Shown: in pieces, positions 53 to 13,600 of the stretch
How the letters are laid out: each line of letters opens with the position of its first letter
Numbering within the stretch: the first letter of the stretch is position 1
Assembly: GCA_017427065.1 (NCBI GenBank)
Contig: JAFRTL010000008.1
Location: forward strand, 1-64,000
Length of the DNA: 64,000 bases
DNA from: Bacteroidaceae bacterium
Lineage (GTDB): Bacteria > Bacteroidota > Bacteroidia > Bacteroidales > Bacteroidaceae
Direction of reading: 5' to 3'
Translations under genes and position numbers: made by a program
Notes under the pieces: generated by a model
The model's database searches: none
What the model was told of the DNA's origin: nothing
What the model saw: the letters and a program-made list of their open reading frames with translations, nothing else

Positions 53-92
53 GTGTGTATTAATTTTTAGAAATAACTGAAATGAAAGAAAA
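53..92 (-). repeat. 40-bp repeat, copy 1 (inverted relative to copies 2 and 3)
   Basis: The reverse complement of this segment is identical over 40 bases to 1406-1445. The key words are TTTCAGTTATTTCTAAAAA and a terminal ACACAC run. Together the two copies form inverted repeats around the HU gene. A third, shorter copy lies at 8847-8878 at the boundary with core genes. Confidence 0.9.
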
Positions 93-172: not shown

Positions 173-206
173 CCCTCGTGAGGGCGTAAAAATTCCCTCG
201 TGAGGG
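173..206. repeat. two tandem copies of a 12-bp dyad, 22-bp period
   Basis: CCCTCGTGAGGG occurs at 173-184 and again at 195-206, exactly 22 bp apart. A degraded third version (cctcactagagag) follows at about 217. Each copy is nearly self-complementary, so the array could bind a dimeric protein on one helix face or form small hairpins. No function is assigned. Two exact units are too few and too short for a CRISPR array. Confidence 0.6.
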
Positions 207-315
207 AGGCTGAATTTCCTCACTAGAGAGTTATATGCATTTCTATATTCGCTTTCTGTATAAATATGCAAAAAATGGAGAAATCGCTTCTATTTGAAAA
301 TTTTCTTCAAAAAAG

Positions 316-459: not shown

Positions 460-727
460 ATCCCTAATGTCAAAACTTCTCTCCCAAACCTCAAAAAATT
501 TTCACTTTTGCAATTCTAGAAAACCTATGATTATTATATAACGAAATGTAAACAAATGTTAAATATTTTCTAGGGTATTGACAAGCGGTACTTCAATGTT
601 GTAACTTATTTATATACGAGGCAAATTAGTGAGAAAGCCGAAAACGTGGTGGCCAACACGCCAAAAGCCAACAAGCTAACAAGCCAGTATAGTTAACCTT
701 ATTTTTAACCTTAAAACCTAAAAAACT

Positions 728-1300
728 ATGGCAATTAAAGTAATCGCAAGACAAACCTTGCAGAAAATCGGAAAGTATGTGGGCACTTATCGCTTCGTGA
801 TGCAGACCCAGTTGTACAACACCTTGACTCAATCCAAGGTAATCAAGGAAGCCTCCTTGCGCAGTGGTATCCAGAAGGGTGCGCTCAACGCAGCATGGGA
901 CGCTATCGGTGAAGTGATCAAGGCATGGGCCACCGAAGGCCACTCTGTAGCCATCCCAGGACTCGGTTCTATGCGCTTCAGCGTACGCGCCAACAGCGTG
1001 GAGAACGTAGAGGAAGTAAGTTCCAAGCTGATCACCTCGCGCCGTGTGATCTTCACGCCTAGCGTGGACATCAAGAATGAGTTGAAGGTGACAGGTATCA
1101 ACATCACCTGTTTCGACAAGGACGGTAACCTCGTGAAAGCCGTGAACTCCAGCGATGCCGGCAACGTGGAGGACGGTGAAGACGAGAACACTGGCAACGG
1201 CACCGACAATGGTGGCACCGACAACGGTAGTACTGAGAATCAGGGTGGAAACACCGAGACGCCAAGCGGTGACGACAATCCTGATGGTGGCATCGGGTAA
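728..1300 (+). CDS. HU-family DNA-binding protein with acidic low-complexity tail
   Basis: This 190-aa protein belongs to the Bacteroidota HU-like (HU-HIG) DNA-binding group. Residues 1 to about 125 hold the DNABII-like fold: an N-terminal helical part, then the beta-arm region with IPGLGSMRFSVRA at about 76-88. From about residue 142 the chain becomes a disordered tail rich in D, E, N, G and T, in repeated NGGTDNGS-like units, quite unlike canonical 90-aa HU. It is followed by a smalltalk gene, a pairing common in Bacteroides and Prevotella. The ATG at 728 follows an AT-rich leader. The gene is more GC-rich than its surroundings. A nucleoid or structural role is inferred from the family; the tail's purpose is unknown. 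Confidence 0.9.
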   Translation: MAIKVIARQTLQKIGKYVGTYRFVMQTQLYNTLTQSKVIKEASLRSGIQKGALNAAWDAIGEVIKAWATEGHSVAIPGLGSMRFSVRANSVENVEEVSSKLITSRRVIFTPSVDIKNELKVTGINITCFDKDGNLVKAVNSSDAGNVEDGEDENTGNGTDNGGTDNGSTENQGGNTETPSGDDNPDGGIG

Positions 1301-1305
1301 CGCCT

Positions 1306-1392
1306 AATTCACAATGCACAATTCACAATTACCATCCGGATGGGTAACGCTGCGCAGCCAATTGTGAATTGTCAATTATGAATTGTCAATTG
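1306..1392. repeat. structured intergenic repeat, copy A
   Basis: Two arms of CAATTGTGAATTG-like units (1306-1330 and 1360-1392) are mutually complementary. They flank a GC-rich core at 1331-1359 that holds a near-palindrome (ACCATCC/GGATGGGT) and the palindrome GCTGCGCAGC. The same plan and nearly the same core recur at 19465-19561. It can fold into a long hairpin just after the HU stop codon, so it may act in 3'-end formation or be a mobile REP-like element. Confidence 0.75.
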
Positions 1393-1405
1393 TAAAGCCT
1401 TCGGC

Positions 1406-1445
1406 TTTTCTTTCATTTCAGTTATTTCTAAAAATTAATACACAC
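1406..1445 (+). repeat. 40-bp repeat, copy 2 (smalltalk leader)
   Basis: It is identical over 40 bases to the reverse complement of 53-92, and about 20 contiguous bases are also shared with 8848-8867. It sits directly before the smalltalk start, so it may belong to that gene's leader. Copies 2 and 3 are direct repeats bracketing 1446-8846. Confidence 0.9.
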
Positions 1446-1470
1446 ACATTAACCTTAAACCTTAACTACT

Positions 1471-1578
1471 ATGAAGAACAAACGTGAACTTTTGAAGTAT
1501 GGCATCCAGCTACTTATAGCTATCCTCACTGCCATTGGCACCTCACTAGGCGTATCTTCCTGCATGAGTATGCTGTGA
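1471..1578 (+). CDS. smalltalk protein (35 aa)
   Basis: This micro-gene encodes 35 residues: a basic N-terminus (MKNKRELLKYG), one hydrophobic helix (about residues 12-28) and a short C-terminal tail with one Cys. Size, composition and position just after an HU-family gene fit the smalltalk family, a small Bacteroidota single-helix membrane protein of unknown function. The ATG follows a leader with repeated AACCTTAA words like those before the HU gene. An intrinsic terminator follows at 1602-1631. A 58-bp copy of its 3' end lies beyond the Fic gene at 2726-2783. Confidence 0.8.
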   Translation: MKNKRELLKYGIQLLIAILTAIGTSLGVSSCMSML

Positions 1579-1601
1579 GAAGCGGTATAATTATGATCAT
1601 G

Positions 1602-1631
1602 AAGGCTGGCTCGTGAGAGTTGGCCTTTTTT
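1602..1631 (+). terminator. intrinsic terminator after smalltalk
   Basis: A 9-bp stem (ggctggctc / gagttggcc, with G-U pairs) around a GTGA loop is followed by six T. It ends the HU-smalltalk transcript before the Fic gene. Confidence 0.75.
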
Positions 1632-1686
1632 CTTGCCAAGAATAAAAAAGGAGTATGACTATTCTTCAAAAACAAATCATTTTATT

Positions 1687-1694
1687 ATCTTTGT
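1687..1694 (+). promoter_or_regulatory. -7 promoter box for the Fic gene
   Basis: TATCTTTG matches TAnnTTTG and lies 24 bp before the Fic ATG. No clear TTTG box is seen at the -33 position. Confidence 0.55.
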
Positions 1695-1717
1695 AACATA
1701 ATAGAAACTTTTATCAG

Positions 1718-2719
1718 ATGATTACAGGCGCAATAATTGCAAAATATAAGAAGGCTGACGAAAACAACCGCCTGCTATCCTCATACAGACCTCTGCCACC
1801 TGAAACGCTCAAGTCGTTGCGGGAGTATTATCGTGTGGGACTAACCTATTCGAGTAATGCCCTTGAAGGTAACAGCTTGACGGAATCGGAAACCAAAGTA
1901 GTGATTGAAGACGGATTGACGATAGAGGGCAAACCCCTACGTGACCATTACGAGGCTGTTGGTCATGCCAAAGCATACGATTACGTCTATCAGATTATGG
2001 AAAAGGAAGGGCTTACAGAAGAGGATATCCTGAATCTTCACCGCCTATTCTATCAGCAGATAGATGTAGAGAAAGCTGGGCTATACCGTAATGTAAAGGT
2101 TTATATCAGTGGTAGCCGCTATGCAGTTGCGGCCGTCTCGAATATTCCTGCAGAAATGCAGAAACTCGTCAAATGGTACAATGATAACGAGAAGATTTTG
2201 CACCCCATAGAGTTGGCTGCTAAATTGCATCAGCGTTTTGTATTTATCCATCCGTTTGTTGATGGTAACGGTCGTGTGGCACGTCTTTTGATGAATCTCG
2301 CCTTGTTGCGTAATGGTTTTACCATAGCCATCATTCCGGCTTTACTGCGCCACGAATATATCTATTCTCTAGAAACTGCACATAATCGCCCAGAGGTGTT
2401 TGTAGACTTTATTGCAGATCGTGTAATAGCAACACAGCTCGACTTGCTTAGGCTGATGAGAGATGATGATACTGTAAATGATACTGTAAATGATACTGTA
2501 AAATCAGAAGTGTCTGCATTTTCTAAGACAGAGCAAACGGTGTTTGCTGTTATTAGTTCATACCCTTATTATTCATACGAGAAGTTGGCAGAATACTGCC
2601 ATCTCTCTCGCCCCACTATTGCTCGAACAATCAAGACGTTGCAAAGCCGCGAGTACATTCGTCGTATTGGTTCAGACAAGACAGGTCATTGGGAAGTTAT
2701 CAAAAAAGAGGACGAGTAA
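1718..2719 (+). CDS. Fic family protein with C-terminal winged helix
   Basis: Fic proteins usually transfer AMP from ATP to hydroxyl groups of target proteins. The active-site motif HPFVDGNGRVAR lies at residues 178-189 with all key residues present (H178, G183-N184-G185, R189). The N-terminal segment SNALEG (46-51) matches the inhibitory [S/T]xxxE[G/N] helix, so this is a class II, self-inhibited Fic protein; E50 would block the gamma-phosphate site. A winged-helix domain occupies about 270-325, which suggests transcriptional or DNA-linked autoregulation. The linker contains a triple NDTV repeat from a 12-bp tandem DNA repeat. No separate antitoxin gene is seen. It lies between an intact and a broken smalltalk gene, suggesting insertion. 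Length (333 aa) is usual for Fic-wHTH proteins. Confidence 0.92.
   Translation: MITGAIIAKYKKADENNRLLSSYRPLPPETLKSLREYYRVGLTYSSNALEGNSLTESETKVVIEDGLTIEGKPLRDHYEAVGHAKAYDYVYQIMEKEGLTEEDILNLHRLFYQQIDVEKAGLYRNVKVYISGSRYAVAAVSNIPAEMQKLVKWYNDNEKILHPIELAAKLHQRFVFIHPFVDGNGRVARLLMNLALLRNGFTIAIIPALLRHEYIYSLETAHNRPEVFVDFIADRVIATQLDLLRLMRDDDTVNDTVNDTVKSEVSAFSKTEQTVFAVISSYPYYSYEKLAEYCHLSRPTIARTIKTLQSREYIRRIGSDKTGHWEVIKKEDE
2468..2500 (+). repeat. 12-bp tandem repeat in the Fic linker
   Basis: The unit GATACTGTAAAT occurs two full times plus a third partial copy, encoding NDTV-NDTV-NDTV in frame between the Fic and winged-helix domains. The unit is a multiple of three, so slippage would change linker length without breaking the frame. 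Confidence 0.85.
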
Positions 2720-2725
2720 TGGAAT

Positions 2726-2783
2726 CTCACATCCATTAGCACCTCCATAGGCGTATCTTCCTGCATGAGCATGATGTGAGAAG
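2726..2783 (+). pseudogene. 3' remnant of a second smalltalk gene
   Basis: This 58-bp stretch aligns without gaps to 1525-1582. In the same frame it encodes the same smalltalk C-terminus (IGVSSCMSM then stop) with mostly silent or conservative changes. It has no start codon; its 5' part is replaced by the Fic gene, whose stop codon ends only 6 bp upstream. It is followed by its own terminator. I read it as the surviving end of a paralogous smalltalk gene. Confidence 0.75.
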
Positions 2784-2811
2784 AATAGCTTAGTGAAGGG
2801 CTAGAAAAGAA

Positions 2812-2854
2812 CTCCCGCTGCAAGATTGAAAATCATGTAGCGGGAGGCTTTTTA
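2812..2854 (+). terminator. intrinsic terminator after Fic / smalltalk remnant
   Basis: The arms ctcccgctgca (2812-2822) and tgtagcgggag (2836-2846) pair over 11 bp, with a T-run after them (2850-2854). It also separates the Fic transcript from the convergent ATPase gene ending at 2863. Confidence 0.8.
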
Positions 2855-2862
2855 ACTATACA

Positions 2863-4896
2863 TTAAAGTGGAAATTTCATTGGTTTATAGTCATAATCCG
2901 AACACTCCCATACCCATTGCACACATTGTCTGCCCATATGGAGATTGTTTATAGGATTCTTTATTAAACTAATTTCTAATGCTTCTTTACTTTGATAAAC
3001 AATAGCGAGATAATATAAGTCTTGTTTATATTGAGCGACAGCATATTCATTATTTGTCATTCTAAATTTCTGACCAGGAAATTCTACGGATTTTACCTCA
3101 ATATAAATGTAGTTACTATTTGGATCTTTTCCTTCTAAATCATATCCAACATTCTGATTACTCACATCTCGTAGGCTAAAGCCATTTGAATTTAAAGCAT
3201 TCAGCGTATTCTCTTCTGCACTTCTCCATTTTTGTATGCTAGTGCTAATTACATTAGATGAAGATGAAGACACATTATTAAACCAATCAGTTACACTTGC
3301 TTTATTCGGCATATTGTCATCAGATGTAGGCTTATCATGAGGGATATCTTCATCTTTAAACTGTCTCTCCTGCAAGTTTTTCAAATGCAATTTCTTTAGG
3401 CAAAGCCCAATATCTTTTTGTAAAATACCATTATCTTTCATTAATTGTACAAAACTATCATCAATAAGCAGATTGTTGTCATTAATTTCCTTTAGTGAGC
3501 ACAACTTATTATTAGACATAAAAATAGGACTTGAAGAAAATGTATTCAAATCATGATTCATTAAGATACTCTTTATACTAGCAACTGCAATTTGAGCATA
3601 ACCTTGCATAGATAATTCAACGACATTTACTGTTCCCAAAATGCTTTCTATGCTATCTGATTTACTACCTAAATACTTCATCAACCCTTCAACCCCAGCG
3701 ACTTCATTAATTGCTGGTGATAAAAATGGCTGATTGGATATTTCCATCATCTTTGCATAATCAACAGCATTAAACCAATGAGGAGATAGTTTTATTTCTG
3801 AGAAAAATGATCCAAGTTTATCTTTGAGTTGTTTGATGAATTCTTTTTCAAAAGACGGCTTCATTAGTTGGATAATGCTCAAGTCAAAATAAGGTATCAG
3901 GGCATTGACAATGCTACTATTCTTGTTTTCCAGGGCCTCTTTCAACAATGTAGCATAAAGCAAAACGAGATTAGAAATCACTTCTTTTGTCGTATCGTCT
4001 AAAATTAAATGCCTTCGTGAAGGATCTGTACTGAAATCACCATTCAAAATAACCCCCATTCCACATGTGTCTTCCGTAGGGAGGAAAGCATGAATTATGG
4101 CCTCATTCTTCGGCAATTTTACAATCTTGTTGTCCTGTAGTGAGAATGCGATTTTACAATTATTATACGAACAAACAAACCAATCGTTTATTGTATCTGT
4201 TGTCGATATTCTAATCTTTCTTCCTTGATTATTATCTTCTAAAATTGCAATATTGGCGGTAATTCTTTTCGTAAGCTCAATTCTAATTGTCCTTATGTTA
4301 TTCAGAAACAGTAACGTAGTATTAGCAAATGATGTGTATTCCTCATCAATTTGATTAGCCGTAGCTCCAGTAAAGATGAAAATAGTCTGATAGCCCTCGT
4401 TTTGTATTTTTATTATTTCGCTTGATAGTTCATTTATAACTTCTTCTTTTATGAAATGAGGTATTCTGATTAAAGGGATATTTGGTGCTTGTGGAATAAT
4501 CTGTTTTGACAATTCTTTAGAAAAAGTAATTTGGTAATCGCCACTTACCAGATGAACTTCTTTAGCGAAACTAACTACAGATTTGAATCCAATTCCACGA
4601 TAACCAATAGATGATCCACGAACTTTATTTGAAGAAGCACTTCTGCATAGGCTTTCTAAATCTGCACTATTAAAAGTACGGCCATTGTTGGCAACAAATA
4701 GATAATCTTTATGTCTTTTTACAAAAAAGCTACTAGCGCCTGCATCATCAGCATTTTGTAATAGTTCAATGAAAGAACGACTATTATAACTCTCAGACAC
4801 GTATGTTTCAAGACCTGCTAGGTCGGACAAGAGTATCGGGGAATTCTTAGCTTCATCAATCAATGATTGACGTATTATTTCAAAAGACTTATTCAT
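2863..4896 (-). CDS. sacsin-like GHKL ATPase with C-terminal DUF3883 domain
   Basis: This 677-aa protein starts with a histidine-kinase/Hsp90-like (GHKL) ATPase domain of the sacsin type. The N-box ELLQNADDAG is at 44-53, ANNGRTF at 69-75 and the glycine-rich lid GYRGIGFKSV at 98-107. After a long middle region without recognised motifs, residues about 555-650 form a DUF3883-like domain with GYDLEG...YIEVKS, a layout like PD-(D/E)xK nuclease folds. An ATPase plus a possible nuclease fits a DNA-acting or defence machine, but that is inference. Its ATG overlaps the stop of the upstream 270-aa gene by 4 nt (ATGA), so the two are translationally coupled. The pair is AT-rich and lies in the accessory block. 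No homologous system name is claimed. Confidence 0.82.
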   Translation of the reverse strand: MNKSFEIIRQSLIDEAKNSPILLSDLAGLETYVSESYNSRSFIELLQNADDAGASSFFVKRHKDYLFVANNGRTFNSADLESLCRSASSNKVRGSSIGYRGIGFKSVVSFAKEVHLVSGDYQITFSKELSKQIIPQAPNIPLIRIPHFIKEEVINELSSEIIKIQNEGYQTIFIFTGATANQIDEEYTSFANTTLLFLNNIRTIRIELTKRITANIAILEDNNQGRKIRISTTDTINDWFVCSYNNCKIAFSLQDNKIVKLPKNEAIIHAFLPTEDTCGMGVILNGDFSTDPSRRHLILDDTTKEVISNLVLLYATLLKEALENKNSSIVNALIPYFDLSIIQLMKPSFEKEFIKQLKDKLGSFFSEIKLSPHWFNAVDYAKMMEISNQPFLSPAINEVAGVEGLMKYLGSKSDSIESILGTVNVVELSMQGYAQIAVASIKSILMNHDLNTFSSSPIFMSNNKLCSLKEINDNNLLIDDSFVQLMKDNGILQKDIGLCLKKLHLKNLQERQFKDEDIPHDKPTSDDNMPNKASVTDWFNNVSSSSSNVISTSIQKWRSAEENTLNALNSNGFSLRDVSNQNVGYDLEGKDPNSNYIYIEVKSVEFPGQKFRMTNNEYAVAQYKQDLYYLAIVYQSKEALEISLIKNPINNLHMGRQCVQWVWECSDYDYKPMKFPL

Positions 4897-5705
4897 CGTG
4901 TTGGATATATTCTAATTTTACCAATTTTTACTACAGGAATATCAAGTTCTATAGTTCCAAAATGAAACACTTCAAATCCCATAAAATCACCACTGCCTTT
5001 TCTTATACTTTTATGTTCAACAATGTTGTTGTCTAAATCATATATAGCCATTTCTATACAGAAATAGTTTCCTGATTTTTTGTCATCCGAAGAAAGAATC
5101 TCGCAAAACACAGATAAAGAGCATTCATCTTTTACTTGAACGGAAAAGTTTTGAAGAACCAATCCGAATTTTTCTTCTATTGATTCAAAATGTTCAATTC
5201 TTTTGGTTAGGTCAACATTGATAGAATGCCTCTCTTGAGCTTCTGTAATATACCATTTCCTATTTTTTCTGATAAGTAATAATGATGCTACGTTACCTTT
5301 ATTAAACTCAATCTCAATACGATCGCCATCATGAGCGCTTCTAATACTTTCAAAACTAATTTCTATATCTGTAAATGAATTAGGCTGAAAAAATAATCCA
5401 TCTGAATAACTAATGCTTGATGGACTAATAAGATATTTTTCCTTTAAACCATATTCAATAGATATGTACCTTGCTTTATTAATAAATAGTTTATTCTTAT
5501 TTGCAGATAGATTGTAGGCTCTGAGAAATATAAAAAACTTCTCACGAGAATCATTATAGATTTCTTTAACTATTTCAAATCTAAAACCATTAAAAACAGA
5601 ATCTTTTAATAACTCCATAATGCTGTCTTTTTCGTAAGTTCCACTATATACTAGTTTATTTCTTCTCCTAATCTCACTTTTGTGAGATAATAAAAGATTT
5701 AGCAA
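4893..5705 (-). CDS. hypothetical beta-rich partner of the sacsin-like ATPase
   Basis: I do not recognise this 270-aa protein. It has no signal peptide or membrane helix, a basic N-terminus (HKSEIRRRNKL at about 8-18), and many short alternating hydrophobic strands. This suggests beta-sandwich domains around residues 75-155 and 175-268 with a short helical link between. It is the first gene of a two-gene operon whose second gene, the GHKL ATPase, begins inside its stop codon, so the two products probably act together, for example as adaptor and motor. Codon use and AT-richness match its partner and differ from the core genes beyond 8.9 kb. The first ATG is used because no better alternative is seen. 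Confidence 0.7.
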   Translation of the reverse strand: MLNLLLSHKSEIRRRNKLVYSGTYEKDSIMELLKDSVFNGFRFEIVKEIYNDSREKFFIFLRAYNLSANKNKLFINKARYISIEYGLKEKYLISPSSISYSDGLFFQPNSFTDIEISFESIRSAHDGDRIEIEFNKGNVASLLLIRKNRKWYITEAQERHSINVDLTKRIEHFESIEEKFGLVLQNFSVQVKDECSLSVFCEILSSDDKKSGNYFCIEMAIYDLDNNIVEHKSIRKGSGDFMGFEVFHFGTIELDIPVVKIGKIRIYPTR

Positions 5706-5850
5706 AAATAAGATAATCTTTTTTGATAAACAAAAAAAACTATTAAGAATGAAATAGTATTTACAACATTAAGAGTCATGAAGTTAAATAAGTATGACTT
5801 GAAAGAATTGTTATTTTCTTCAAAAAAGCTATTGTATCTGAAGAAAATGC

Positions 5851-5858
5851 TATATTTG
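5851..5858 (+). promoter_or_regulatory. -7 box for the exonuclease/BRCT gene
   Basis: TATATTTG fits TAnnTTTG, 66 bp before the ATG at 5925; a weaker TTG lies near the -33 position. This would give a leader of about 60 nt. Confidence 0.5.
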
Positions 5859-5924
5859 CAGACAGATGTATTTAGTTCTATTTCTGAATGAACTTATATC
5901 GCTAATGTATAAAATGCATAGATT

Positions 5925-7493
5925 ATGAGTAACCAAAACTTTATAGCTGTTGATTTTGAAACTGCAACTAACACCAGTAGAATGGCTTGTCAAGTAGGTA
6001 TTACTATTGTGAAAGACGGTATAATCAAAGATACTATAGTAAGACTGATACAACCTCCTCACAATGAATATGAACCCAATTGTATCAATGTTCATCATAT
6101 AGTACCTGAGATGACAGAGAAAGCACCTACTTTCGACAAAGTATGGCAGGAGATATCGCATCTGTTTATTGATACGACTATTGTTGCTCACAATGCTAGT
6201 TTTGATGAGGATGTATTATACAAAAATTTATCATATTACGGAATACTACCTATAGGTATTAACAAATTTGAGTGTACTTACTGCATATATAATCATAACT
6301 TGCATGATCTTTGCCAATCTTTTGGTATGTCTACACAAGGACATCATGATGCAGGATTTGATTCAAGATGTTGTGCACAGTTCTATTTAAATCACCTTAA
6401 TGGAGTAAAACCAGATTACAATCTTATTAATAAGGAGAATAATAACAACTTTTCTTCTCATGTCGCTCTTCATGGTGATGTGTTGCAGAAAGATTTATCT
6501 GAAGCAAATCCAAATAATCCATTTTTTGACCGCAAACTTGTAATAACTGGTGAATTTGATATTGATCGTATTGAGCTTGCAGAAAAGCTGAAAAAGATGG
6601 GAGCAGACATAGACACAACAATAACAAAACGTACTAGTTATGTAATTATTGGGAGTGAACCAGGGCCTAAGAAAATGGAAAAACTGGAAGAGCTTATTAA
6701 TAGCGGAAACCATATAGTTAAGATATATCCATCAGATCTTGAACGTATTTTCAATGGTGAATGGAATAATTACATGACAGTTAAACCGTCATTAGTTGGG
6801 AAAGATCCCAATCACCCATTATATGATAGGCGAGTTTTCATTACTGGTAAATGGGGAAATAGAACGAATTTCAAGAAACTCTTAGAGTCTTATGGAGCAG
6901 AAGTGGAGGATCAAATAACAAAATATGTTACTCATGTTTTCATTGGACAGGATCCTAAAGAAGAAGATTTGAATAATATTCAGAAATTAGAATTCAATGG
7001 TTTTCATTTTTGTCGATTATATCAGAATGATTTTGATAATCTTAGTTTTCAAATTTGGGATCCATATCGCACACCTTTCTTTTTGAAAAAAGAACTAGAT
7101 TTCTCCATACAGCTCTTTGAGCAACAACATATTCGTTTTGATGGGATGCGAAACATTATCGCTTCTAAGGAATTATATTATGGAAAAGGGTTTAAAGAAA
7201 AAGTAGATTGTTTCTATCAGATAGCAGGAAATCTTGGGGCATTTGGTAATTGGGATTTAAACAATGATGTTGATATTTGTGTATTAAGCAATTCTACCAT
7301 AAATAAACTGCGAGATGGAATAAAAGATGAGACGATAAAATATATAGAAGATACTTATAATAAGAACAATGCAGATCAATTCAATTACAAATTCCTAACA
7401 GAACAAGACATTCTGGATTATTGTAAATCAAGATGTGATGCTTGCGATGATGATGTAACTATGCATTACTATAATGTTTACATAAATTCTTAA
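5925..7493 (+). CDS. DEDDh 3'-5' exonuclease with tandem BRCT domains
   Basis: Residues 1-160 are an exonuclease of the DNA polymerase III epsilon type: D10-F-E12 (Exo I), AHNASFDED with D94 (Exo II), and H141...D146 (Exo III). All acidic metal ligands and the general-base His are present. Two BRCT domains follow, at about 193-275 (starting NPFFDRKLVITGEF) and 285-370 (starting HPLYDRRVFITGKW); the glycine and aromatic positions of the fold are visible. The last 145 residues have no recognised domain, and include NLGAFGNWDLNNDVD and a Cys/Asp-rich end (CKSRCDACDDD). DNA proofreading or trimming directed by BRCT contacts is inferred. The gene is AT-rich, stands alone, and ends before a strong convergent terminator. 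Confidence 0.85.
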   Translation: MSNQNFIAVDFETATNTSRMACQVGITIVKDGIIKDTIVRLIQPPHNEYEPNCINVHHIVPEMTEKAPTFDKVWQEISHLFIDTTIVAHNASFDEDVLYKNLSYYGILPIGINKFECTYCIYNHNLHDLCQSFGMSTQGHHDAGFDSRCCAQFYLNHLNGVKPDYNLINKENNNNFSSHVALHGDVLQKDLSEANPNNPFFDRKLVITGEFDIDRIELAEKLKKMGADIDTTITKRTSYVIIGSEPGPKKMEKLEELINSGNHIVKIYPSDLERIFNGEWNNYMTVKPSLVGKDPNHPLYDRRVFITGKWGNRTNFKKLLESYGAEVEDQITKYVTHVFIGQDPKEEDLNNIQKLEFNGFHFCRLYQNDFDNLSFQIWDPYRTPFFLKKELDFSIQLFEQQHIRFDGMRNIIASKELYYGKGFKEKVDCFYQIAGNLGAFGNWDLNNDVDICVLSNSTINKLRDGIKDETIKYIEDTYNKNNADQFNYKFLTEQDILDYCKSRCDACDDDVTMHYYNVYINS

Positions 7494-7546
7494 GAATTAT
7501 CCATAGGAGGTATTATTGAATTCATTGACAACTATTATCTGCAAAT

Positions 7547-7586
7547 ACTCCGCAATCGCGTTTTAATGTGACTGCGGAGTGTTTCT
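7547..7586. terminator. bidirectional terminator between convergent genes
   Basis: The arms actccgca (7547-7554) and tgcggagt (7573-7580) form an 8-bp stem. T-richness follows on the + strand and an A-rich flank precedes it, so it can serve the exonuclease gene and overlaps the end of the convergent lipoprotein gene at 7585. Confidence 0.6.
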
Positions 7587-7962
7587 ATTTACCTATAGTA
7601 TGAGTTATTCTTAATCCCATTACCCCCTCACCATTTTGTTTGACAACGAAGGGCTCTTGGTCTATTGAAACAGAGATCCTTCCAGTAATAGTTGCATAAT
7701 TAGGCGCTACTATCCCTAAATAGACCTCATCTCCAAACTTAAATGGGCCATGAATTTCTTCCCAATCCCTTGAATTTGTAGCAGTGTGAGTATCTCCATT
7801 CTCAGTAGCTATATTAATATTATATGATTGTATGTACTTGGTTACAACTTTCATTTCATATTTTACATAATAAGAATGGTTATCTGATGGATCATCAGAT
7901 GAGCATGAGCAGAGAAATATACATGCACAAGCTAAAACCAAAGCAAATATATAATTCTTCAT
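7585..7962 (-). CDS. small predicted lipoprotein, unknown function
   Basis: This 125-aa protein has a hydrophobic signal ending in the lipobox LCSC (Cys20). The next residues are SSDD; such acidic residues right after the Cys resemble the Bacteroidota lipoprotein export signal, so surface exposure is possible. The mature part is short and beta-rich (YYVKYEMKVV, GRISVSIDQEPFVV), about 105 residues, perhaps one immunoglobulin-like domain. I recognise no family. It lies alone between two + strand accessory genes and is AT-rich like them. Confidence 0.65.
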   Translation of the reverse strand: MKNYIFALVLACACIFLCSCSSDDPSDNHSYYVKYEMKVVTKYIQSYNINIATENGDTHTATNSRDWEEIHGPFKFGDEVYLGIVAPNYATITGRISVSIDQEPFVVKQNGEGVMGLRITHTIGK

Positions 7963-8055
7963 AACTTACATTAATTGTTTTATTATTAATAGCTATACAA
8001 AAGTAGTTATTATTCGTCTTTATGCAAATTAATATGTTCGAAAAACAAAAACTAT

Positions 8056-8087
8056 TTTGAAATAACACTTCGCTTTTCTTACCTTTG
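8056..8087 (+). promoter_or_regulatory. promoter of the NERD gene
   Basis: TTTG (8056-8059) and TACCTTTG (8080-8087) are 20 nt apart, matching the Bacteroidota consensus. The ATG is only 16 bp after the -7 box, so the 5' leader is very short. Confidence 0.75.
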
Positions 8088-8102
8088 TAACAAACTTTCA
8101 TT

Positions 8103-8837
8103 ATGGGAATACTAGTTTTCATACTATTTATAGGGCTTTTCATTTTACTATGGTATCTTATACCGAGTAAGGGTGAGATGGCAGAATTGCGTGTCCATAA
8201 TGTGCTGATTGAACTCCCAGAAGAATATCATGTTATAGATAATGTCATTATTGGAAGCAATAATTATTCCTCTCAAATAGATCATATAGTAGTATCGCCT
8301 TATGGTATTTTCGTTATAGAAACAAAAGGTTATAAAGGGTGGATATATGGTGGTGAGAATGCTCAGTATTGGACTCAAAACATATTTGGGAAGAAGTATC
8401 AACTATACAACCCCATATTGCAGAATCAAGGTCATGTGAAAGCCTTGATGAAGATTCTTCCAAGTATCCCTAATGATTGCTTCATTCCTATAGTATGTTT
8501 CAACAATGATGCTAGTATATTTGTTAAAGTACAAAACCATATTGTCATAAACAGGAGGAAACTGAAAACGACAATAAAGCGATATAATACACCTATCATC
8601 TCCTCAGAAGATAAAGAATGGATCATTAGCACGATAACCTCACACATGAGAGTGGGCAAAGAAGTTGAAAAAACTCATGTCTTCAATGCTAGGAATAAAG
8701 CTAGATCGAGTTATAAGGACATTAACAATGGTATATGCCCAAGATGTGGAGGTCAAATAGTAAAACGATATGGCAAATATGGTTCGTTTTATGGGTGTCG
8801 CAATTATCCTAATTGCAAATTTACTATGCAAGGATAA
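8103..8837 (+). CDS. membrane-anchored NERD-domain protein with topoisomerase-type zinc ribbon
   Basis: One membrane helix (residues 3-20) is followed by a NERD domain, a nuclease-related fold. QIDHIVVSPYGIFVIETKG (58-76) carries the expected catalytic D60 and E73-x-K75. The C-terminus (about 208-244) is a four-Cys zinc ribbon, CPRCGG...GCRNYPNCKF, of the kind found at the ends of type IA topoisomerases, which binds single-stranded or unusual DNA. The membrane anchor, nuclease-like core and DNA-binding finger suggest a surveillance or DNA-processing role at the inner membrane; this is inference. It is the last gene of the accessory block: the third copy of the block repeat starts 10 bp after its stop codon. 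Confidence 0.85.
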   Translation: MGILVFILFIGLFILLWYLIPSKGEMAELRVHNVLIELPEEYHVIDNVIIGSNNYSSQIDHIVVSPYGIFVIETKGYKGWIYGGENAQYWTQNIFGKKYQLYNPILQNQGHVKALMKILPSIPNDCFIPIVCFNNDASIFVKVQNHIVINRRKLKTTIKRYNTPIISSEDKEWIISTITSHMRVGKEVEKTHVFNARNKARSSYKDINNGICPRCGGQIVKRYGKYGSFYGCRNYPNCKFTMQG

Positions 8838-8846
8838 TATTTATTT

Positions 8847-8878
8847 TATTTCAGTTATTTCTAAAAAATAACACACAC
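8847..8878 (+). repeat. block repeat, copy 3, at the accessory/core junction
   Basis: ATTTCAGTTATTTCTAAAAA is identical to part of copy 2 (1406-1445), and a diverged AATAACACACAC tail extends the match. It lies between the NERD gene and the 3' end of the first core gene, so it marks one edge of the accessory block. Confidence 0.8.
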
Positions 8879-8881
8879 CCT

Positions 8882-9115
8882 TTACTCCACTTCCTCAAAC
8901 TCAGCGTATTCCCCTTCGCCCTCTTTGAACACTTTGGGTTTCTTGTGACTGAGGTCTTCCTTGTTCTTGGTGATCTGATCGCTGCCTTTAGGACGCTGGG
9001 CACTGGAGGCGCTGGAGCCAAAGCCGAAGATGGCCTTGAAGAAACGGATCATGGAGCCGAAACCGAAGAGGATGCCGGCGATGAGGATGGTGATGAGGAA
9101 GCCTAGGAGTTTCAT
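8882..9115 (-). CDS. DUF4834 family small membrane protein
   Basis: This 77-aa protein has an N-terminal membrane helix (KLLGFLITILIAGILFGFG), a short amphipathic RFFKAIFGF stretch, and a charged C-terminal tail (EGEGEYAEFEEVE). Layout and position match DUF4834 of Bacteroidales, whose function is unknown. The start at 9115 was chosen because its ATG overlaps the pssA stop by 4 nt (ATGA); an upstream start would add 14 residues lying inside pssA. It is the last gene of the psd-pssA-DUF4834 operon, hinting at a link to phospholipid synthesis. Confidence 0.8.
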   Translation of the reverse strand: MKLLGFLITILIAGILFGFGSMIRFFKAIFGFGSSASSAQRPKGSDQITKNKEDLSHKKPKVFKEGEGEYAEFEEVE

Positions 9116-9825
9116 GATGCCTTGCGCTGGGTGATAAGGGACAGAAGGATGAACCACACGATGATGAGCGCGATGCCCAGGATCTCAAAGCATGCCAACA
9201 ACAGAAGGCATCCGAAGAGGAAGATGAAACGTACCTTGTTGTCTGCCCAACTGAGGTTCTTGAACTTCAATGAAAACATGGGGATCTCTGACACCAGCAA
9301 CCAGCAGGATACGCCAATGAGAATGAGAATCAACAACGGGGTGCCTTGGAAACTCATCAGCAACTCATCGCCTCCAACGATCAGGGCTGCCCAGAACAGG
9401 GCATTGGCTGGTACGGGGAGGCCAATAAAGGAGGTGGTCTGACGGGCATCGTTGTTGAACTTTGCCAACCTTAACGCTGAGAAGACGGCAATGAGGAACG
9501 CCAGATAGGGCACGTAGGCGATAACGGGCGCCATGGAGAAATAATTCAGCAAACATATCTGCAACCAGCTGAAGACCATAGAGGCTGGGGCGATGCCGAA
9601 GGTGATGTCATCTGCCAACGAGTCGAGGTCCTTGCCAATGATGGAGTAGGCATGCAGCGAGCGGGCTGCCAATCCGTCGAAGAAATCGAACACGGCTCCC
9701 AGGATGATGAACACCAGCGCCCATTCGAAGTTCTGCATGAAACCATGATAGGTAGCCACACATCCGCAGAATAGATTCATGCAGGTAATGGTGTTGGGGA
9801 TGTGTTTGGTGATGCGGTTTGCCAT
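9112..9825 (-). CDS. pssA: CDP-diacylglycerol--serine O-phosphatidyltransferase
   Basis: The enzyme joins CDP-diacylglycerol and L-serine to make phosphatidylserine in the inner membrane, the first step towards phosphatidylethanolamine. The CDP-alcohol phosphotransferase signature DG-x2-AR-x8-G-x3-D-x3-D is complete (DGLAAR ... GKDLDSLAD, near residues 49-71). Several hydrophobic membrane helices surround it. The 237-aa length is normal for the short type II enzyme. It lies 12 bp after psd, the next enzyme of the pathway, and overlaps DUF4834 by 4 nt, so the three form one operon transcribed from the psd side. Confidence 0.95.
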   Translation of the reverse strand: MANRITKHIPNTITCMNLFCGCVATYHGFMQNFEWALVFIILGAVFDFFDGLAARSLHAYSIIGKDLDSLADDITFGIAPASMVFSWLQICLLNYFSMAPVIAYVPYLAFLIAVFSALRLAKFNNDARQTTSFIGLPVPANALFWAALIVGGDELLMSFQGTPLLILILIGVSCWLLVSEIPMFSLKFKNLSWADNKVRFIFLFGCLLLLACFEILGIALIIVWFILLSLITQRKAS

Positions 9826-9837
9826 AATGGAGCGTGG

Positions 9838-10521
9838 TTAAAGTTGGGCAATGATGGTTTCGTTTCCAGTGGTATGCTGACCCATGCTGACATTGACCTT
9901 GGTGCCTACAGGCAGGAAAAGGTCCACGCGAGAGCCGAACTTGATGAAGCCCAGGTGCTCGTCGATGTAGCAGTCGTCGCCTTCCTTGGCGTAGGTGACA
10001 ATGCGACGGGCTACGGCTCCTGCGATCTGGGTGGCCATGATCTCAATGCCGTTGGGCATCTCGATGACGACGCTGGAACGCTCATTGTCGGTACTCGACT
10101 TAGGGAGCCATGCGGCCATGTAGCGACCGTTCTTATGCCACGCCTTCTTCACGGTACCATCTACAGGGAACCAGTTGGCATGCACGTTCCACAGGTTCAT
10201 GAAGATGGAAACCTGCAAACGGCGGTCGTGGAAATATTCGTTCTCATTCACCTCTTCGATGACCACTATTTTACCATCGGCAGGGGCTACCACCATGTTG
10301 GTAGTGTCTTTCCCAAAAAGGCGGATAGGGCAACGGAAGAAATTGACCAGAATGCCATACAAGAGGATGCTGACAGCGAGGACAATGTAGAAAGGAATCT
10401 TGCTTTCGAAGCCAAAATAAAAGGCTAAGTTTATCACTATCAGCAGCAGTAAACCGCCTATGAGCGTATGGGTGCCTTCGCGGTGAATACGTATGTTTTT
10501 GAGTCTTTTTAGACGAGCCAT
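9838..10521 (-). CDS. psd: phosphatidylserine decarboxylase proenzyme
   Basis: It decarboxylates phosphatidylserine to phosphatidylethanolamine using a pyruvoyl group made by self-cleavage. The cleavage site is the Gly-Ser of [14 protein letters not shown] near the C-terminus, giving a short alpha chain that carries the pyruvoyl group. The N-terminal part has a membrane helix ([19 protein letters not shown]). The 227-aa length fits the short, archaeal-type PSD family common in Bacteroidota. The start at 10521 (MARLKRLKN) was preferred over an upstream ATG whose extra 25 residues are Cys/Phe-rich and lie in the promoter region. It is the first gene of the psd-pssA-DUF4834 operon, divergent from dnaE. 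Confidence 0.95.
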
Positions 10522-10635
10522 GAACCTATTGTTTTGATATAAGTTTTCAAACCAACTGCAAAAATACAAGTTTTTTAAACACAATCCAATTTTCAAAGAA
10601 AGAATTATAGTTGTTGATAACTTTTAGTGAAATAT

Positions 10636-10667
10636 TTTGGTAGGATGACAAGTAGATTGTACCTTTG
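10636..10667 (+). promoter_or_regulatory. dnaE promoter
   Basis: TTTG (10636-10639) and TACCTTTG (10660-10667) are 20 nt apart. The dnaE ATG follows 27 bp after the -7 box. Confidence 0.8.
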
Positions 10668-10693
10668 AGACGGATTTTCTGGATAGACATTTT

Positions 10694-13600
10694 ATGCAAG
10701 ATTTTGTTCATTTACATGTTCACTCCCAATACTCGGTGCTCGACGGACAGTGTAGCATCAAGCGACTGGTGGATAAGGCGGTTGGCAACGGCATGCGTGG
10801 CGTGGCCCTCACGGATCATGGCAACATGTTTGGCGTGAAGGAGCTGTACGACTATGTGGCTGGGGTCAACAAAAAGCGCAAGAAGGAGGGGCTGGAGCCT
10901 TTCAAGCCTATCTTCGGGTGTGAGGTGTATGTGGCCAGATATGGTCCGAAAGAACAGAAGAACGGTAAGCAGGACCAGAGTGGCTATCACCTGATCTTGC
11001 TGGCAAAGAATTATCAGGGGTATAAGAACCTGATTAAACTGGTGAGCAACGCGTGGGTGGATGGCTACTATATGCGTCCGCGTACCGACCGTGCCGATCT
11101 GGAGCGTTACCACGAGGGTCTGATTGTCTGCTCTGCCTGTTTGGCGGGGGAGGTGCCCAAGAAGATCCAGGAGGGCAACATGGAGAGTGTGCGCGAAGCG
11201 ATAGAGTGGCATAAGCGGGTGTTTGGCGACGATTATTACCTGGAACTGCAGCGTCATGAGGTGAAGGATCCTTCCATCCGGGCCAATCGCGAGGTGTATC
11301 CCGAACAGGTGAAGGTGAACAAGGTGCTGATGGAGCTGGCGCAGGAGTATGGCATCAAGCTGGTCTGCACCAACGACTGTCACTTCGTAGATGAGGATAA
11401 TGCGGAGGCACACGACCATCTGCTGTGTCTCTCCACAGGTAAGGATTTGGACGATCCTACGCGTATGGTCTATACGAAGCAGGAATGGTTCAAGACGCGT
11501 GAGGAGATGAACGAGATCTTTGCCGATGTGCCTGAAGCGCTCTCCAATACCTTGGAAATTCTGGATAAGGTGGAGATGTACAGCATAGACCATGATCCCA
11601 TCATGCCTGCTTTCCCGATACCTGAGAGTTTCGGAACGGAGGAAGAATGGCATAAGAAGTTTACCAAAGAAGACCTCTTCCTTGAGTTTACCAGCGATGA
11701 AAAGGGCGAAAACCCAATGCCTCGCGAGAAAGGGGAGGAGAAGATCAAGAAGTTGGGCGGCTACGACAAGCTCTATAGAATCAAGTTTGAGGCTGACTAT
11801 CTGGCAAAGTTGGCTTACGAAGGTGCGAAGAAGCGCTATGGTGATCCACTGCCAGAGGAGGTAAACGACCGTATCCGCTTCGAGTTGCACATCATGAAGA
11901 CGATGGGCTTCCCTGGCTACTTCCTCATTGTGCAGGACTTTATCAATTCTGCCCGTGATGAACTGGGGGTATTGGTGGGACCTGGTCGTGGATCGGCTGC
12001 GGGTAGTGTGGTGGCTTATTGCTTGGGTATCACCAAGATAGATCCGCTGAAGTATGACTTGCTGTTCGAGCGTTTCCTGAATCCCGACCGTATCTCGCTG
12101 CCTGATATCGATACCGACTTCGACGATGATGGTCGTGGAAGGGTGCTGCAATGGGTGGAGGATAAATACGGGCATGAGAACTGTGCACACATCATCACGT
12201 ATGCCACGATGGCCACGAAGAACTCCATCAAGGATGTGGCACGTGTGGAAAAGGTGCCTCTGGACATCAGCAATGCGCTCTGTAAAGCCATTCCCGACCG
12301 TCTGCCTGACGGCATGAAAATGAATCTGCCCAATGCCATCAAGTGTACGCCTAAGTTGCAGGAGGCCGAGACTTCCGACAATGAGGCGTTGGCGAATACC
12401 ATTAAATATGCGAAGATGCTCGAGGGACAGGTGCGTGGTACGGGTATTCATGCCTGTGGCTTCATCATCAGTCCTGATCCTATCTCGGATTGGGTGCCTG
12501 TATCCACTGCAGATGATCCTGACTTTAAAGATACCAAGACCAACTGTACGCAGTACGACGGTCATGTGATAGAATCGACGGGCTTGATAAAGATGGACTT
12601 CCTGGGACTGAAGACGCTTTCGGAGTTGAAAGAGGCCTGTGCCATCATCAAGCAGCATCGGGGCATAGACATTGATTTGGACAATATCCCGATCGATGAT
12701 CCAAAGACTTATGAACTCTATCAGCAGGGACGCACCATCGGCACGTTCCAGTTTGAATCGGCGGGTATGCAGAAGTATCTGCGCGAGTTGCATCCTACGG
12801 TGTTCGAGGACCTGATTGCCATGAATGCCCTCTATCGTCCAGGACCGATGGATTACATTCCTTCGTTCATCGCGCGTAAGAACGGTAAGGAGGAGATTCG
12901 CTATGACCTCCCATGCATGGAGAAATACCTGAAGGATACGTATGGCATTACGGTGTATCAGGAACAGGTGATGCTGCTGTCGCGCCAGTTGGCCGACTTT
13001 ACGCGTGGCGAGAGTGATGCGCTGCGTAAGGCGATGGGTAAGAAGAAGAAGGACATCGTAGATGCCATGAAGCCTAAGTTCATCGAGGGTGGCAAGAAGA
13101 ACGGACATGATCCTGAAACGTTGGAGAAGATTTGGGCCGATTGGGAGAAGTTCGCTTCTTACGCATTCAATAAGTCGCATGCCGCTTGTTACTCTTGGGT
13201 GGCTTTCCAGACGGCTTACTTGAAGGCCAACTATCCTGCGGAGTTCATGGCGGCGATCATGAGTCGCAGGCGCGATCAGATAACGGAAATCACCAAGTTG
13301 ATGGACGAATGTAAGTCGATGGGCATCGCTACGCTCGGTCCTGATGTGAATGAGAGTTACCTGAAGTTTGGTGTGAATCACAAGGGTGAGATACGCTTCG
13401 GATTGGCGGCCATCAAGGGCATGGGCGATGGAGCTGCTCTTGCCATTATTGATGAGCGCGAGAAGAATGGGCCTTACAAGACCATCTTCGACTTTGTGCA
13501 GCGTGTGAATCTGGGTAGCGTGAACCGTAAGGCACTGGAATCGTTGGTACTGAGTGGTGGATTCGATAGCTTTGGCATTCCTCGTGAAGAGTTCTTTGCG

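Follow-up and report, generated by a model that had tools for sequence, protein, structure and literature searches.

A variable partner protein and a sacsin-type ATPase form a two-gene unit in a Bacteroidaceae genome: a candidate compact Tiamat-type antiphage system

What role could a protein of no recognised family have when its gene overlaps that of a large ATPase with a nuclease-like end? The question is raised by a stretch of 64,000 nucleotides (hereafter the window, meaning the whole of the DNA that was analysed: positions 1 to 64,000 of contig JAFRTL010000008.1 of the Bacteroidaceae assembly GCA_017427065.1, here G000, 2.5 Mb and 83% complete), in which the original prediction placed a candidate undescribed two-gene system on a plan common among antiphage systems. 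The pair, called here the partner and the ATPase, is real: a check of the open reading frames (ORFs) confirmed that both lie at the positions claimed and share a 4-nucleotide ATGA overlap (Table 1). We lean modestly towards reading it as a compact two-gene Tiamat-type antiphage system, a partner-gated and ATP-dependent nuclease.

The larger protein had been described as a GHKL ATPase ending in a DUF3883 domain, and the profile searches agree, with Pfam finding SACS (6.4e-10) and NOV_C (3.8e-13, residues 576-639) and NCBIfam finding P_loop_sacsin (1.1e-20). Across nine aligned ATPases, the window's own included and a partial one (L002) excluded, residues E44, N48, G98, G101, G103, K105, D586, E600 and K602 are invariant (9/9), and both the N48 and the E600-V601-K602 motif named beforehand are present. 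The D...(D/E)xK pattern of PD-(D/E)xK nucleases would be given by D586, E600 and K602, as read in the alignment; DUF3883 is termed a novel restriction endonuclease (REase) domain in the accessible part of an earlier study (PMC3710099). Conservation is concentrated at the two ends of the protein, since identity between the window ATPase and a homologue on a viral contig (L018) is 37% over residues 1-300 and 42% over residues 551-677, as against 13% over residues 301-550.

The same two ends are found in the PADLOC family TmtA, which we take to be the protein of Tiamat, a single-gene system, with which the window ATPase has in common an N-terminal sacsin/GHKL ATPase and a C-terminal NOV_C domain. 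The window ATPase matches TmtA at 6.5e-55; its best profile is PDLC03964, and the best stretch joins residues 8-358 of the protein to positions 16-394 of the 1538 in the profile. Two long TmtA proteins from the same order, of 1549 amino acids (L010, genome G338) and 1603 amino acids (L011, genome G186), match profile positions 16-1536 and 7-1536 respectively, with SACS at the start (in L011 below the Pfam cut-off), NOV_C at the end (2.9e-15 and 2.1e-11) and no partner-like domain found inside either of them; the TmtA models listed span 1063-1782 positions. The window ATPase, 872-926 residues shorter than these two proteins, keeps both TmtA ends without most of the middle, and differs further in having a separate partner gene, which precedes the ATPase at six places and overlaps it at five. 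We do not class the window pair as Tiamat, because its match falls short of the full profile and the unit is not a single gene. Judged from the domains, the pair is a mini-Tiamat with a separate partner and is not wholly undescribed; that word was too strong for the ATPase, whose end domains are both shared with full-length TmtA proteins. In the literature, no title or abstract opening among the matches listed (for the longer lists a part only, such as 20 of 581) describes this pair, and none of six terms looked for occurs in PMC12839542.

Several other defence systems resemble the window ATPase in part. VcSduA (a Shedu with GHKL, paraMORC3) combines a GHKL with a PD-(D/E)xK domain and protects against phage, and, according to the accessible sections of the source, changes in either domain abolish this protection, whose strength was much the same at every multiplicity tried (PMC12137116). 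Its order, a GHKL ATPase and then a PD-(D/E)xK-type domain at the C-terminus, is the one predicted for the window ATPase; its nuclease domain, as far as those sections go, is DUF4263 within one protein, whereas the window has NOV_C and a partner gene, and DUF4263, as in Shedu type I-D/paraMORC3, gave no Pfam match in the window ATPase at E<=1. PADLOC also shows a weak match (3.3e-5) between the NOV_C end of the window ATPase and the C-terminal part of the HmaA profile; Hma itself calls for an SNF2 helicase and a methylase, and no helicase or methylase was found among seven window proteins scanned with Pfam. The PD-T4-1 profile of PADLOC also matches the ATPase weakly (4.2e-5), at residues 575-640 in the NOV_C end, and nothing outside that end. 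More broadly, MORC and paraMORC ATPases with fused or neighbouring nucleases are described in restriction systems, with DNA looping proposed, in the available part of one paper (PMC2292703), and the available part of another counts Tiamat as one of the systems whose mechanism is not known (PMC10482375).

A remote homologue, L026, was rejected as a close relative since it belongs to a Hma-type stretch, where HmaA, a TmtA-like GHKL protein and HmaB are separate proteins accompanied by helicase and methylase. On this contig, filed as viral, positions 589-12450 hold an integrase and a WYL-like regulator (both recognised by eye), the HmaA helicase, the TmtA-like GHKL gene and the HmaB methylase.

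The partner was said to belong to no recognised family, and this has held up: scans of its 270-residue form against Pfam, PADLOC, NCBIfam and PHROGs at E<=1, and against PDB sequences at E<=5, were all negative. Two profile matches to PDB entries (E 1.1 and 2.3) were taken as chance, as were matches of the partner's C-terminal piece to 149 phage records at E<=10 (among the 20 listed of the 149, about 30% of the query was covered and 16 were annotated as topoisomerase large subunit) and to 33 plasmid records of Rhizobium and its kin (36-58% covered among the matches listed). One match in genome G105 (L004, E 2e-4) was spurious, falling inside a 720-residue ORF that by eye resembles a capsule chain-length protein. 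On the Rhodococcus erythropolis plasmid pBD2 (L044, 3968-4312) stands a standalone protein of 114 amino acids that matches the C-terminal half of the partner over its length. Seen in four records, with a best tblastn E of 0.7, an hhalign probability of 94.5% and a HMMER score of 33 bits, this protein is probably kin of the partner, though it was picked from a large search.

The length of the partner probably needs correction. Read from a TTG, its ORF runs over 4893-5705 (-) and gives the 270 amino acids of the original prediction; the start is, however, probably the ATG at 5618, giving 241, because the TTG falls inside a promoter-like site of the pattern TTTG-N-TAnnTTTG, which we take to be the Bacteroidota promoter consensus. 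The upstream TTTG of this site begins at 5734, and the TTG at 5705-5703 makes up the last three bases of TAnnTTTG. Patterns of this kind number 8 in the window against 2.57 expected (standard deviation 1.73), a count reached in 1 of 100 shuffles. The ATG at 5618 is where the alignment with the homologues begins, and three of the five (L002, L023 and L024) have an ORF that opens there; that of L025 stays open further upstream, and in L016 the partner domain is internal to a fusion.

The expectation of a two-gene unit with conserved order elsewhere was borne out. Ten ATPase loci were read, one of them (L002) partial, and the partner stands directly before the ATPase at 6/6 places, namely the window, L002, L016 (from genome G500), L023, L024 and L025, with a 4-nucleotide overlap at all of these save L002, which has a 6-nucleotide gap. 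Searches that started from the partner met it only beside the ATPase and led to the window, L002 and G500 (the last had already come up through its ATPase); for L023, L024 and L025 the ATPase was the way in, and the partner was then read as the adjoining gene. Two findings that had been named as counting against the pair, namely co-occurrence nowhere else and a match of both genes to a characterised non-defence pathway, were not seen. At L002, in Butyricimonas (10709-11493), the reading frame of the ATPase is interrupted near 11167, not far from the end of the contig. The L016 partner forms the C-terminal part of a 670-residue protein, whose first ~437 residues consist of sequence duplicated within the protein, at 35% identity over 206 residues. 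Extra genes precede the partner at L016 (883-1509) and L024 (9706-10146), both without a Pfam match, and at L025 (6302-7132), with a DUF5677 match below the cut-off (2.8e-4); they are possible third components.

The partner changes faster than the ATPase, as would suit a sensor. Its identity is the lower of the two in 10/10 pairs of the five intact partner loci (for L016 and L023, 68% against 90.7%), and within it the linker of residues 135-176 is on average the best conserved part, and similarity is lower in the N-terminal half than in the C-terminal part for 13/15 pairs, the exceptions being window/L025 and L016/L024. The partners of L016 and L025 are 41% alike in the N-terminal half and 86% at the C-terminus, and these loci fall into different groups in the partner tree and in the ATPase tree, which suggests recombination.

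The pair is rare and patchy. In genome sets of order, family and phylum, which overlap and include many incomplete assemblies, the ATPase gave five matches at E<=1e-15 among 393 order genomes (full-length only in the window and G355), four at 1e-10 among 151 family genomes (G429 in part only), the window's own alone at E<=1e-40 among 375 phylum genomes, and six, its own included, at 1e-30 among 379 family genomes, five of these six with the partner. The partner itself was found once among the 393 order genomes (the window's own, after dropping G105), twice among 216 family genomes (the window and G500), once among 61 relatives (its own) and also in the one Butyricimonas metagenome-assembled genome (L002), and it was not found in the plasmids or viral contigs searched. 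With the ATPase as a single-sequence query nothing was found in viral contigs and one phage record was met, 15% covered; ATPase alignments used as the query found L018 and the remote L026. This spread bears on the idea of a protein-quality pair unrelated to phages, in which a sacsin/Hsp90-like chaperone would work with a client-binding adaptor. Such a pair would fit the closest solved structures by profile, which are sacsin fragments (for example 5v47, at E 0.0018), with MORC2 and MutL ranking behind them, but we consider it quite improbable given so rare and patchy a distribution (6/379 family genomes), the occurrence of homologous ATPases on a plasmid and on a viral contig, intact D...ExK-type residues and two ends shared with TmtA.

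For the reading that we favour, the compact Tiamat-type system, we hypothesise that the 677-residue protein would be both engine and effector: its GHKL ATPase would dimerise and clamp on binding ATP, like MutL, Hsp90 and other GHKL proteins, and the clamping would switch on the C-terminal NOV_C, a predicted PD-(D/E)xK endonuclease. The 241-residue partner would act as sensor or adaptor, in which the variable N-terminal half would recognise a sign of infection, either a phage protein or altered DNA, and the conserved linker would dock on the ATPase together with the C-terminal part. The most likely outcome would be cleavage of the incoming DNA and, as a second choice, killing of the infected cell. 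The antiphage function itself is inferred, and so are the trigger, the formation of a complex, nuclease activity and the hydrolysis of ATP. In a two-gene form of less than half the size of Tiamat, where the candidate sensor would be a protein of its own, sensing and cutting could be tested separately. An improbable alternative is a modification-dependent, type IV-like restriction, where the partner would read modified phage DNA and not a protein; two-gene NTPase-nuclease systems that read modified DNA (GrwAB and TgvAB, in the accessible sections of PMC12137116) and the lack of a methylase among the seven window proteins scanned would suit it, but Pfam recognised no DNA-binding domain in the partner.

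Four ATPase homologues stand without this partner (L012, L018, L017 and L009). On a Planococcus plasmid (L012) a 209-residue protein of alpha type precedes the ATPase with an 8-nucleotide overlap, and on the viral contig L018 a 212-residue protein of alpha type does so at a distance of 36 nucleotides, the two genes lying behind tail and endolysin genes. At L017 (2166-6866) a weakly related alpha-type protein of 226 residues is followed by the PARIS genes AriA (PADLOC 6e-61) and AriB (3e-97) and then directly by a SACS-NOV_C ATPase, which AriB overlaps by 8 nucleotides; the alpha-type proteins of these three loci are weakly related (best BLAST E ~1e-6 to 4e-3, three sequences). PARIS consists of an ABC ATPase and a Toprim nuclease and senses phage anti-restriction proteins (PMC11455837), and AriA and AriB had no match among five window proteins scanned with PADLOC. 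Were the ATPase to restrict DNA under the guard of PARIS, their coupling, seen at one locus and without the window's partner, would be understandable. The surroundings of L009 (1642-17480) form a dense defence region, with an AbiEi-AbiEii pair on each side of the ATPase, FRG and Bro-N candidates and a gene matching PDC-M21C.

These neighbours also bear on whether the pair is a toxin-antitoxin or abortive unit, the partner being an antitoxin that keeps the ATPase-nuclease inactive until infection frees it and the cell is killed. The arrangement of a small gene first and a larger enzyme gene second with translational overlap is as expected for such a unit, and PARIS, to which one ATPase homologue is coupled, is itself described as a toxin-antitoxin system (PMC11455837). 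Nevertheless we regard this as unlikely, if the most serious competitor, since the L016 partner, fused to ~437 residues of duplicated sequence, resembles an adaptor more than it does a small antitoxin, the 570 bases before the ATPase of L009 hold no same-strand ORF longer than 54 amino acids, and other homologues of the ATPase are preceded by a protein from a different family.

A wider idea, which we put forward tentatively and hold to be somewhat doubtful, is that of a plug-in immune engine, one SACS-NOV_C ATPase-nuclease taking interchangeable unrelated partners, each for another trigger, with single-chain Tiamat as the one-protein form with a built-in sensor. Three kinds of partner would then plug in: that of the window, which also occurs fused to repeats; the alpha type, seen in Planococcus and on the viral contig; and the PARIS AriA-AriB module in the same operon. 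The varied neighbours of the homologous ATPases, PARIS included, suggest a general way in which bacteria may rewire one effector to new triggers.

Several points weigh against the antiphage reading of the window pair. The assignment of NOV_C as a PD-(D/E)xK nuclease is a prediction, and no kinship between the partner and a known sensor could be detected. The sample is small, with ten ATPase loci of which L002 is partial and broken, and the 6/6 is not an unbiased count because L023, L024 and L025 were found through the ATPase. It is homologues without this partner, 29-35% identical in the ATPase, that have the PARIS, AbiE and viral-contig contexts; the defence neighbours are sightings at single loci; and by eye L024, L016 and L012 have no clear defence neighbour, those of L024 being ordinary. 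The antiphage plan proposed at the outset stands in part: the layout of ATPase, nuclease-like domain and partner of no known family agrees with it, as do the PARIS, AbiE and viral contexts of some ATPase homologues, but other loci show no such context.

Table 1. Features of the gene pair and its surroundings in the window
Feature	Position	Strand	Basis or remark
ATPase gene, 677 amino acids, ATG start	2863..4896	-	ORF list; Pfam, PADLOC; invariant motif residues
ATPase parts: GHKL sacsin/Hsp90-type; fast-changing middle; NOV_C/DUF3883 nuclease-like end	residues ~1-300; 301-550; 551-677		
Partner gene, 241 amino acids from ATG 5618	4893..5618	-	alignment with five homologues; regional conservation
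Partner parts: variable N-terminal half; conserved linker; C-terminal part	residues 1-134; 135-176; 177-241		
ATGA overlap, partner stop and ATPase start	4893..4896	-	4 nucleotides
5' leader, probably (coding from TTG in the earlier reading)	5619..5705	-	unmatched in homologues; TTG inside promoter-like box
Promoter-like site TTTG-N-TAnnTTTG, Bacteroidota type (presumed), before the pair	5703..5734	-	pattern count against shuffles
AT-rich cassette: Fic, pair, exonuclease-BRCT, 125-residue ORF (lipoprotein-like start), NERD	1407..8884		bracketing direct repeats
Fic with helix-turn-helix, neighbour, outside the pair	1718..2719	+	Pfam Fic 3.1e-26; PADLOC SoFic 2.8e-35, PDC-S04
Exonuclease with two BRCT, neighbour	5925..7493	+	Pfam RNase_T, BRCT; PADLOC candidate PDC-S48 4.4e-21
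NERD nuclease-related protein with zinc ribbon, neighbour	8103..8837	+	Pfam NERD 1.4e-30

The pair lies in a cassette whose other genes had been named as Fic, exonuclease-BRCT and NERD, all of which Pfam recovers. The AT-richness of the pair was likewise seen, G+C per kb being 0.28-0.35 at 3001-9000 against 0.37-0.53 in the rest of the window. Such neighbours raise the idea of a DNA repair unit, a MutL-like ATPase-nuclease working with the exonuclease-BRCT and NERD genes. A weak match to a MutL model (NCBIfam, E 0.011) and the repair-type neighbours speak for it, but we find it very improbable, the least favoured of the alternatives, as neither neighbour turned up (E 1e-3) at any of the nine other ATPase loci, several of which are short contigs, and the patchy spread is unlike that of core repair.

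The cassette is bracketed by 45-nucleotide direct repeats (1407-1451 and 8840-8884, 87% alike). Their exact 20-nucleotide core has three copies in the whole assembly, two direct at 1415-1434 (+) and 8848-8867 (+) and one inverted at 64-83 (-), and four further copies with two mismatches occur elsewhere in it. The neighbouring pssA was found in 24/25 other genomes of the genus, and none of the 16/16 flanks fetched from those 24 had cassette genes beside pssA at E 1e-5. In the nearest sister (L028, pssA 93% identical) the cassette is not at this site, and the partner was not found in its genome (76% complete). There, at 576-1040, an HU gene is cut at residue 45 and joined to the p91-pssA block after ~50 bp; we rejected L028 as a clean empty site because the cut HU gene and a junction that is not at the repeats make loss in the sister or an assembly fault equally possible.

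The window Fic has a remote counterpart, 25% identical, at L025 only among the nine other ATPase loci. On either side of the Fic gene lie 58-nucleotide direct repeats (1525-1582 and 2726-2783) that are 88% alike.

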